Of a stretch of DNA of 64,000 bases, positions 1-49,779 are shown one piece after another. The stretch's first letter is position 1, and every line of letters begins with the position of its first letter. Under the pieces are notes generated by a model. The model was given only the letters and a program-made list of their open reading frames with translations, did not search any database and had not been told where the DNA came from. The stretch covers positions 31,374-95,373 of the forward strand of contig NZ_JAENIM010000043.1 in NCBI RefSeq assembly GCF_016595495.1, read 5' to 3'. A program made the position numbers and the translations under genes. This DNA is from Persicirhabdus sediminis (GTDB taxonomy: Bacteria > Verrucomicrobiota > Verrucomicrobiia > Verrucomicrobiales > Akkermansiaceae).

Positions 1-695
1 TTAGGCATTTCATCTTTCAGCCAGAGCACACGACATAGCCCACGGCGAGCGCGTTTATCTCCAGCTAGAGCGGCTCCATAACTACACCATCGATACGCTT
101 CTGGTTTCTCCACCATGCCCGCTCTAACTGGGTTCAGATCAATGTAGGTCGACATGATTCTAGCAACGTATCCAGCCTGCACGAGCACGCTGGTGTAGCG
201 ACCGCTCCACAGGTAGCCGTCGCGGTTGTTATGCCTATTGTACCAGCGACTGAACCGCTGCTTCAGGCTCTTCATGAAGTTGCCCAAATCGTGCATCCGG
301 CTGGTATATTGTCGCTTGAAATTATCCGCCGCCACCCGGCTGGGATTCCCCTCAGCATCTTGGCTAGTAGTCTCTAGCAAATTGTTAAATATCTGCTTCA
401 CCTCGGCGTAGTAGCTGGCTGAATACAGCGCCTTCACGCGTCGTAAAAACTCATCATCGCTAATTTCTACCTCACCTTCCTTAGGCACTTCAACCAGCAG
501 GTGAAAGTGGTTCGACATCACACAATAGCTGAGGATTTTGACGCCGTAAAAGGTCTCACAATTACGCATGAGCCCAACAAATAGCTCACGCTCAGCATCA
601 CCCAAAATAAATCGCCGGTCGACTACACGCGAAATGCAATGGTACACCGCCGAGCGATGTTTTCGATATGGTGACAAATAGCGAGCTGTAGCCAT
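1..695 (-). CDS. IS200/REP-associated (Y1-type) transposase, partial
   Basis: This is a Y1 (HUH) transposase of the IS200/RAYT type, which cuts and joins single-stranded DNA at small hairpins. 231 codons are present; the C-terminus lies beyond the left edge. The start is the ATG at 695, giving MATARYLSPYRKHRSAVYHC, which resembles the usual RAYT opening. The metal-binding HUH motif is seen as NHFHLL with histidines at residues 63 and 65, and the candidate catalytic tyrosine is Y152 in the segment SRWYNRH. The segment YIDLNPVRAGMV (residues 184-195) is also typical of the family. No flanking partner transposon gene is seen, so it is more likely a domesticated REP-type enzyme or the end of a single-gene element. 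Confidence 0.85.
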   Translation of the reverse strand, partial: MATARYLSPYRKHRSAVYHCISRVVDRRFILGDAERELFVGLMRNCETFYGVKILSYCVMSNHFHLLVEVPKEGEVEISDDEFLRRVKALYSASYYAEVKQIFNNLLETTSQDAEGNPSRVAADNFKRQYTSRMHDLGNFMKSLKQRFSRWYNRHNNRDGYLWSGRYTSVLVQAGYVARIMSTYIDLNPVRAGMVEKPEAYRWCSYGAALAGDKRARRGLCRVLWLKDEMP

Positions 696-40008: not shown

Positions 40009-40078
40009 GAGGGAGAGCTAGTGAGGGAGAGCTGTGTGGGAGAGCTGTGTGGGAGAGCTGTGTGGGAGAGCTGTGTGG
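40009..40078. repeat. Short tandem repeat, about 5 copies of GTGTGGGAGAGCT
   Basis: The 13-base unit appears about five times in a row; the first two copies differ slightly (GAGGGAGAGCT). No gene depends on it; it may be a slippage-prone tract. Confidence 0.85.
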
Positions 40079-40380
40079 TGAATTAGCCCGTAGGGCTAGA
40101 GGATTTTAGCCGCGGGTCAACGAGCCCAGCGAGTGCAACCCGTGGTTGCATTCCAGCTAGATCCGTTCCCCGAAGGGGAAATGGAACGTAGCGGGTATTT
40201 GTTCATCCAGCTCAAGCAGAAATAGCTAGGCAGACATTAGTTCTAAAATGATATGGTTGGGGGGAATTTCCTGCGAGTCTAATGCTAAAGTTGTCTTGTC
40301 ATAGGCCCATACGGTATAAATCAACAAGTCGATTAAGTTGCATTCCTTAACCACTTGCCAGCTACGTAACATAGCCAATG

Positions 40381-41273: not shown

Positions 41274-41454
41274 GGTTGCAGTTGGTGTGTAAATAGACAG
41301 ACAAGCTAATTGAACGGCTGCGGAAAAACCCAAAACGACTGAGGTTATTTCAGCTGTAATCCTTGTAGCTAGGGCAATCATGGTCCAGCTAGCTGAAAAA
41401 TGTCTGGCATTTTTTATGACACTATTGAGCAGGAATTCCACTGCCGAAGGCATG

Positions 41455-41702
41455 GTTAAATGCCAGCCCCGTGCGATGGCGCAGCCATCCCGCGGGGAGG
41501 CAGATTCACCGAAACCCGAGCCCTGAATGGGCTCCACATAGGCACAGCCGTAGCAGAAATTTGTCGCCATCAGCTTGGCTGGGCTTTCTCTCGCCCCTTT
41601 GGGGCTTCAGGGTCATTGGGCGTGTTTACCCTGACCTGCGTTAGGCCTTCAGCCTGGCCTTGCTCAGGGCTGTAGTTTCTCGGTCCTTCGGACCTTTTTT
41701 TG
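41455..41702. repeat. Palindromic element cluster, related to the 48641 array
   Basis: A row of hairpins: GATGGC/GCCATC nested in CCCCG/CGGGG (about 41467-41498), GAGCCC/GGGCTC (41519-41535), GCCCC/GGGGC (41593-41606), then a 75-bp unit at 41628-41702 with outer stem CCCTGA/TCAGGG, inner AGGC/GCCT, and GGTCC/GGACC followed by seven T. This last unit has the same order of parts as each copy at 48641-49340. Two reading frames here (opposite strands) lie within the hairpins and are judged spurious. The rest of 41274-41882 shows nothing else. Confidence 0.7.
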
Positions 41703-48640: not shown

Positions 48641-49340
48641 AGTTAGGTGGGGTGGTGCGCTGGGGTCTGTGTCGCTCTTGCAGAGCTGTGGTCTTATTGG
48701 TTTGCTGACCTAGGGTTGCGTTGAGCCTTCGGCTCTGCCTTACCCTAGGCTAGGCTGTTGCACGCCTTCGGCGTTTTTTTTAGTTAGGTGGGGTGGTGCG
48801 TTGGCGGCTGTGTCGCTCTTGCAGAGCTGGGGTCTTATTGGTTAGCTGACCTAGGGTTGCGTTGAGCCTTCGGCTCTGCCTTACCCTAGGCTAGGCTGTT
48901 GTACGCCTTCGGCGTTTTTTTAGTTAGGTGAGGTGGTGCGTTGGCGGCTGTGTCGCTCTTGCAGAGCTGGGGTCTTATTGGTTAGCTGACCTAGGGTTGC
49001 GTTGAGCCTGCGGCTCTGCCTTACCCTAGGCTAGGCTGTTGCACGCCTTCGGCGTTTTTTTTAGTTAGGTGGGGTGGTGCGCTGGGGTCTGTGTCGCTCT
49101 TGCAGAGCTGGGGTCTTATTGGTTAGCTGACCTAGGGTTGCGTTGAGCCTTCGGCTCTGCCTTACCCTAGGCTAGGCTGTTGCACGCCTTCGGCGTTTTT
49201 TTTAGTTAGGTGAGGTGGTGCGCTGGGGTCTGTGTCGCTCTTGCAGAGCTAGGGTCTTGTTGGTTTGCTGACCCTGGGTTGCGTTGAGCCTTCGGCTCTG
49301 CCTTACCCTAGGCTAGGCTGTTGCACGCCCTCGGCGTTTT
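48641..49340. repeat. Five tandem copies of a 141-bp hairpin element
   Basis: Copies begin AGTTAGGTG at 48641, 48782, 48922, 49063 and 49204. Each carries CCTAGGGT/ACCCTAGG enclosing GAGCC-TTC-GGCTC, then a GCC-TTC-GGC hairpin followed by 7-8 T. Copies are about 97% identical; changes fall mainly in loops and single-stranded joints. There is no reading frame of note and no gene in the 790-bp gap that contains it. The tail to 49395 keeps a degraded half-copy. Confidence 0.9.
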
Positions 49341-49425
49341 GTTGCCGGATTGCGTTTTGTTTAGGGTGCTAGCCTTCGGCGTTTTGTTTGTTATATTAGG
49401 TTTTCTCAGCTAGCGGGTAGAATTT

Positions 49426-49779
49426 TCAGCCAGCTGGTAGATAGTCGTTGATGATGTTGTTGACGCTATCTTGTAGCTCATCTATCAGCGCGGGATCCAT
49501 GAATTGATAGTCGTCTGGGATATCTAGCACGTAGATGTCTGTGCTGTCTTGAGCTTGTGGATCTAGCTGGAGGATTCTTTGTTTGTGCTGGTTTTCCATC
49601 ACGCAGATGACGTCAGCCCAGTCGATGTCGTGGGGTTTTAGTTGGCGTTTGGCTGATTTGTTAGTTCCGGCTGATCGGGCTATCACAGCGTGGTGGTGGC
49701 TGTAGATTTTTTCAGCAGTTGGGCTGCGCCATTGGTTCATGGAGCAAATGAATAAGAGCTTGAGTCGAGAATTGGGCAT
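49426..49779 (-). CDS. Low-molecular-weight protein tyrosine phosphatase-like protein
   Basis: 117-residue protein of the LMW-PTP fold. The P-loop C-x5-R is C12 to R18 in FICSMNQWRSPTAEKI; the family aspartate is probable in the loop DIPDDY (about residue 93-97). It is shorter than canonical LMW-PTPs (about 155) and belongs to a branch seen in many environmental bacteria. Substrate unknown. 30 bp separate it from the hslR gene on the same strand. Confidence 0.8.
   Translation of the reverse strand: MPNSRLKLLFICSMNQWRSPTAEKIYSHHHAVIARSAGTNKSAKRQLKPHDIDWADVICVMENQHKQRILQLDPQAQDSTDIYVLDIPDDYQFMDPALIDELQDSVNNIINDYLPAG

Follow-up and report, generated by a model that had tools for sequence, protein, structure and literature searches.

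A 64,000-nucleotide stretch of the Persicirhabdus sediminis genome (Verrucomicrobiota; assembly GCF_016595495.1, contig NZ_JAENIM010000043.1, positions 31,374–95,373 of the forward strand), hereafter the window, carries five head-to-tail copies of a structured element between two convergent genes. The array had been delineated in an earlier note made from the sequence alone, and the TRF program recovered it (48641–49340, period 141, 5.0 copies, 95% matches) with the same unit starts, the single T by which unit 2 is shorter falling within the T run (Table 1). We conclude that each array unit is very probably a terminal repeat belonging to a small transposon with a single gene, which encodes a ~149-aa Y1 (HUH) transposase of subclass 1.2. 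This reading builds on direct observation of the element's anatomy, its copies, the covariation of its stems and the inverted arrangement of copies around the gene.

Each unit possesses three hairpins. The nested hairpin (B) and the final hairpin (C) described in the note are present in all five units, as is a third (A) that it had not listed. Alignment of the copies together with their flanks demonstrated conservation that starts ~9 nt ahead of hairpin A and ceases past hairpin C, delimiting a core of ~116 bp. In 56 copies, pairing is seen in 97.1% of stem cells and two-sided changes occur in 15 of the 25 base pairs, including nine of the 15 in hairpin B; the covariation score lies above 500/500 shuffles and above all slid versions. 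The note's proposal that changes among the array units keep pairing holds for copy 3, which alters the inner-stem loop only (TTC to TGC), but not for copy 5, in which TA to CT at unit positions 71–72 breaks two outer-stem pairs on the + strand (C-A and T-T). Because copy 5 breaks these pairs, the five copies alone are no proof of kept pairing; it is the genome-wide copies that show it. Random, stem-destroying changes in copies elsewhere had been named beforehand as speaking against a structured element; we looked for them genome-wide and observed the opposite, with many copies carrying compensatory changes and covarying stems.

The search covered the assembly to which the window belongs (47 contigs, 4.17 Mb; C-numbers below denote its contigs), over which at least 57 copies of the element are dispersed. 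The element is not confined to a single locus. An open reading frame (ORF) check of the genome copies found none inside an ORF of ≥150 aa. The genome encodes six solo Y1 (HUH) transposases of ~149 aa (147–150 aa), and one of these genes, C47:215523–215969 (149 aa), bears inverted copies of the array element on both sides. This locus, laid out as inverted copy, gene and direct copy, with the hairpins ordered A, B, C outward from the gene, is the only complete element of the array family found in the genome. The note's suggestions of a structured element and of an expanding mobile repeat are thereby supported by the many copies, by their compensatory changes and by the inverted copies around a cognate transposase. 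The other five solo genes are likewise flanked by inverted repeats, whose plan is similar but whose sequence differs; searching the genome with the ends of three of these returned 15, at least 40 and at least 43 matches. When the window array was set against the ends of each of the six genes, it matched those of C47:215523 only, at 79% identity. A relic at C9:147800–148258 comprises two inverted copies enclosing ~230 bp with the first ~35 codons of this transposase (tblastn 54%, E 4e-9; the left end together with the start of the gene is 76% identical at the nucleotide level). It is an internally deleted element and connects the complete transposon to the gene-less repeats.

By their motifs, the transposases match TnpA-Y1 subclass 1.2. 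Residues D54, H55, H57, W94, Q95, Y114, Q118, H121 and H122 are invariant among 32 aligned proteins, and the resulting DHVH, WQ and YxxxQxxHH signatures are those that define the subclass (HUH motif DH[IV]H, WQ, Y motif Y---Q--HH, ~148 aa; PMC6006769). The six proteins are 42–50% identical to the first, in keeping with the low copy number and low identity of the subclass. All match PF01797 above its cut-off, while the IS200 model NF033573 is above cut-off for five and below it for one; profile matches were obtained to the solved ISDra2 and IS608 TnpA, and the closest solved relatives are class 1 TnpA. A 2018 survey described subclass 1.2 as being without REP and generally without IS200-type ends (PMC6006769), which is not what we find, as inverted hairpin ends are present at 6/6 genes here and at 47/77 loci elsewhere. 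The published lack of ends is a reported observation on the subclass and not a requirement of its motif definition; the ends are the new claim. A second Y1_Tnp group, mostly of 370–445 aa, is found at window 387–650 (− strand) and at ~17 other places, several of them at contig starts; no relation of this group to the array has been seen so far.

The arrangement extends well beyond one genome. Among the 116 relatives, covariance model copies are found in 58 and the protein in 75; model matches flank transposase genes, often as inverted pairs, and inverted pairs of copies are common in other relatives. We further queried 80 named loci (77 usable) from Verrucomicrobiota, Planctomycetota, Bacteroidota, Acidobacteriota, Lentisphaerota, Chloroflexota and others. 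The inverted match between upstream and downstream flanks lay above the 99th percentile of mismatched pairs at the 47 loci mentioned above, and perfect hairpins in the flanks number 2.5 per 160 nt, compared with 0.6 in shuffled sequence. Ends of this kind flank an overlooked transposase group across many bacterial phyla, a widespread group whose ends had gone unrecorded in the searchable literature.

Part of this end is already catalogued under another name. The Rfam family RF01687, Acido-Lenti-1 (Weinberg et al. 2010, PMC2864571), is modeled as an 8-bp hairpin, a CUA... linker and a 5-bp triloop hairpin, which correspond to hairpins B and C; consensus, pairing and linker are shared, while the entry is filed as a small RNA (sRNA) gene and is without hairpin A. 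An Rfam scan of the window at the gathering threshold returned no match, the array units scoring 19–24 bits against RF01687, below its 37-bit gathering cut-off; sR40 and rnk_pseudo matches at a relaxed threshold were far below cut-off and were taken as chance. The RF01687 threshold is passed by sister families of the same genome and by ends of homologous transposases elsewhere, and about 25 of the 32 hits in the named loci, counted from hit tables, point outward from the gene. Across 240 genomes of the phylum, RF01687 occurs in 46/51 with the transposase and in 18/189 without it (Fisher p 9e-29); this p-value is inflated by shared ancestry, and physical adjacency is the stronger evidence. In the literature searched, with subscription papers (e.g. 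Bertels et al. 2017), ISfinder and the figures and supplements of PMC3733652 outside its scope, no paper tied such ends to subclass 1.2 or to Acido-Lenti-1; those figures and supplements depict some ‘double palindromic’ repeats. Head-to-tail RF01687 arrays were also observed in another genome of the phylum (G298), with four copies ~72 bp apart (C1:769620–769882) and six ~124 bp apart (C1:1701174–1701838).

The neighbours of the array in the window are two host genes (Table 1). A Pfam search with the 198-aa upstream ORF returned no match, and its homologues in 13 other genomes are only 33–55% identical. The element near 41628, which the note had counted as a further copy of the same family, belongs instead to a sister family whose nearest ends are those of the C21:147230–147673 transposase; two weaker elements lie nearby. 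A 13-bp unit (GGGAGAGCTGTGT) is repeated 5.2 times at 40011–40078, abutting the element at 40079–40188. Elsewhere in the genome, four copies of the array element lie in a ~750-bp repeat at contig starts (L052:779–896, L042:642–757, L039:615–730 and L049:354–469); the first bases of C20 are the reverse complement of the 16S rRNA start, and copies seem to lie upstream of each of four rRNA operons. In a mosaic array at C39:357483–359228, recalling BIMEs, seven window-family copies run head to tail and are interleaved with members of the C47:187165 sister family. Intergenic DNA at L052:940–1060 and around many elements consists largely of short AGCTAGCTGG- or CCCAGCTAGCATTAT-like repeats.

Table 1. 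Array units, hairpins and neighbouring features in the window (positions are those of the window).
Feature	Position	Strand	Details
Array unit 1	48641–48781	+	TRF; covariance model 125.4 bits
Unit 1 conserved core	48665–48780	+	24-bp spacer ahead of core
Hairpin A, unit 1	48674–48686	+	GCTCT TGC AGAGC; two-sided changes in 4/5 pairs, 56 copies
Hairpin B, unit 1	48709–48749	+	Outer stem CCTAGGGT/ACCCTAGG, inner stem GAGCC TTC GGCTC
Hairpin C, unit 1	48762–48774	+	ACGCC TTC GGCGT; 99.6% of cells paired; 7–8 T after
Array unit 2	48782–48921	+	140 bp, one T fewer; TRF; 125.7 bits
Array unit 3	48922–49062	+	TRF; 124.0 bits
Array unit 4	49063–49203	+	TRF; 125.5 bits
Array unit 5	49204–49343	+	Most diverged; G interrupts T run; TRF; 112.1 bits
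Upstream ORF, 198 aa	48037–48633	+	Host gene outside element; stop codon 7 nt before array
Downstream ORF, 117 aa, low molecular weight phosphatase-like	49426–49779	−	Convergent host gene; PF01451 E 1.9e-8
Sister-family element, single	41584–41700	+	64.4 bits, E 5.6e-11; 81% identity over 73 nt to C21 end
Weaker element	41435–41541	−	33.7 bits, E 4e-5; closest to ends of C41:41274–41720 transposase
Weaker element	40079–40188	−	33.4 bits, E 5e-5; 89% over 46 nt; closest ends those of C47:241655–242086 transposase

Several observations weigh against the array unit being a transposon end: i) the inverted-repeat threshold is not reached at 30/77 named loci, ii) identity between the array units and the C47 ends is only 79%, so that the transposase which moved them may be one that is lost or unsequenced, and iii) 18 genomes carry RF01687 with no transposase hit, either as repeats persisting gene-less or with the gene missed in incomplete genomes.

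The alternative that survives best, while improbable, is that the element is a multi-copy structured or regulatory RNA gene of the Acido-Lenti-1 type whose fold acts as RNA. Rfam files RF01687 in just this way with a model equal to hairpins B and C, and covariation suits RNA as well as it suits single-stranded DNA. The fold itself was queried on both strands. The RNA fold z-scores for one unit were −0.8 (+) and −3.6 (−), so that the + strand folds no better than shuffled RNA; with DNA parameters, the three hairpins form on both strands with equal mean energy, and fold energy therefore does not choose the strand. Stem mismatches read as G-T in 14 cells and as A-C in 32, involving about 7 and 7 base pairs. 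The triloops on the + strand are TTC, TGC or TAC, and 141/168 are GNA on the − strand; at the named loci, GNA occurs 118 times on the inward-reading strand versus 21 outward, with GTT as a second large class. C(GNA)G triloops are very stable in DNA. The imbalance suggests that one strand in particular has a fold that matters, in line with recognition of single strands and compatible with RNA as well. Against an RNA gene stand the inverted copies at both ends of a transposase gene, the dispersal of copies, arrays included, and the + strand z-score; a sigma-70-like promoter was looked for in the region and none was found. In a 2026 paper, Acido-Lenti-1 copies located near protease genes are suggested as possible regulators of those genes (PMC13298647); mobile-element debris is a simpler reading.

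Still less probable is that the array has been retained because its units function as intrinsic terminators for the two convergent genes. The note had stated that each unit ends like a terminator, and for these five units that is so, as the 5-bp hairpin C is followed by T's in every one, and the array begins 7 nt past a stop codon between convergent genes. As a property of the element the statement does not stand: 51/56 copies are without the T run, ≥5 T directly after the last hairpin being found in 5/56, four of them in this array. The T run is thus a property of the window array, which may or may not be used for termination. Gene orientation around copy clusters is mixed and without preference (8 convergent, 6 + 5 tandem, 4 divergent), and a terminator role leaves hairpins A and B and the transposase link unexplained; it can hold as a local side effect of the array.

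The history of the array can be read from its units and from the other copies. Adjacent copies share orientation in 25 pairs and oppose in two, the two being the complete element and the relic; copies <1 kb apart are 88% alike and other copies 70%, and for 35 of the 43 copies that have a neighbour, that neighbour is the most similar copy. Within the window array, 16 of 141 columns vary (two of the 16 by gaps only), there are 2 differences between units 1 and 4 and 13 between units 2 and 5, and the spacer of ~25 bp is copied together with the core. Variants are shared among the units in a mosaic pattern, as expected from slippage or unequal exchange within the array. The head-to-tail bias, the similarity of neighbours and the duplicated spacer together point to single ends that dispersed and were then locally duplicated in tandem, and the array is best read as one inserted end that was duplicated locally along with its spacer. 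Head-to-tail adjacency is also what ordinary tandem duplication gives, and a plain satellite-like repeat, two copies of which flank the C47 gene by chance insertion, could account for it; this is highly unlikely, since the inverted arrangement recurs at the other solo Y1 genes here and at homologues in many phyla, and part of the gene is kept in the C9 relic. Integron attC sites, likewise long hairpins in a genome with an integron integrase above the curated cut-off (C16:983–1894, near a contig end), are almost certainly the wrong reading and were dropped, as the array does not lie beside intI, 0/57 copies are on C16 with no model match within 9 kb of its integrase end, copies lie on either side of a Y1 transposase gene, and the array units have no cassette genes between them.

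Taken together, a model for the transposon emerges, and by analogy with IS200/IS605 and REP/RAYT systems we infer recognition, cleavage and mobility of the element. The transposase would recognise the hairpins that the ends form as single-stranded DNA, and with its help ends on their own, or in pairs lacking the gene, would spread as non-autonomous repeats. One such end would have settled between the two convergent window genes, and would then have been amplified head to tail with ~25 bp of adjoining sequence by slippage or unequal recombination. A bolder version, in which subclass 1.2 drives cross-phylum three-hairpin mobile repeats including Acido-Lenti-1, and head-to-tail single-end arrays are built by the enzyme itself (for instance, by joining excised single strands repeatedly) and not by passive slippage, is conceivable and rather doubtful.

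With the transposon reading, an orphan group of single-strand-DNA transposases gains its likely DNA partner, and a database ‘sRNA’ without assigned function is recast as a mobile-element end. The three-hairpin end furnishes a defined substrate for direct recognition and cleavage assays.

The closest precedents share parts of this plan. In PMC3733652 and PMC6006769, REP, BIME and REPIN repeats with RAYT (TnpA-REP) transposases form class 2. As in REP/RAYT systems, many palindromic intergenic copies are cognate to the transposase that they flank, the Y1 transposase, diverged and present as a single copy, has inverted copies on both sides, and each transposase has its own repeat family. The proteins here are class 1, with Y114-x-x-x-Q118 in all those aligned, whereas the RAYT Y motif is Y---NP; the ends are ~95–116 nt with three hairpins, whereas a REP is one hairpin of 20–65 nt; and the GT[AG]G foot is absent from the core consensus, TGTnTC preceding hairpin A. 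TIRtrons/TIRYT, as portrayed in Di Nocera et al. 2013 (PMC3733652), likewise have a Y1 gene and long terminal inverted repeats that are in part self-complementary, and some of these repeats form families dispersed in the genome; TIRYTs are nevertheless class 2, mostly subclass 2.1, with C-terminal helix-turn-helix domains and GGGGWSAS repeats (PMC6006769), while the proteins here are short, of subclass 1.2, and have three-hairpin ends. TnpA-Y1 class 3 is, like the present group, found in Planctomycetes and Acidobacteria, but its members are of ~178 aa with NHVH, W[TA], YV..EQ and a CnGA foot (PMC6006769), compared with ~149 aa, DHVH, WQ and YI..Q..HH here. Relative to IS200/IS605 elements (TnpA subclass 1.1; IS608, ISDra2), the ~150-aa HUH Y1 transposase and the hairpins at the ends are shared; the difference lies in the long inverted three-hairpin repeats that serve as ends, and in six diverged singleton transposases in place of near-identical insertion sequence copies.
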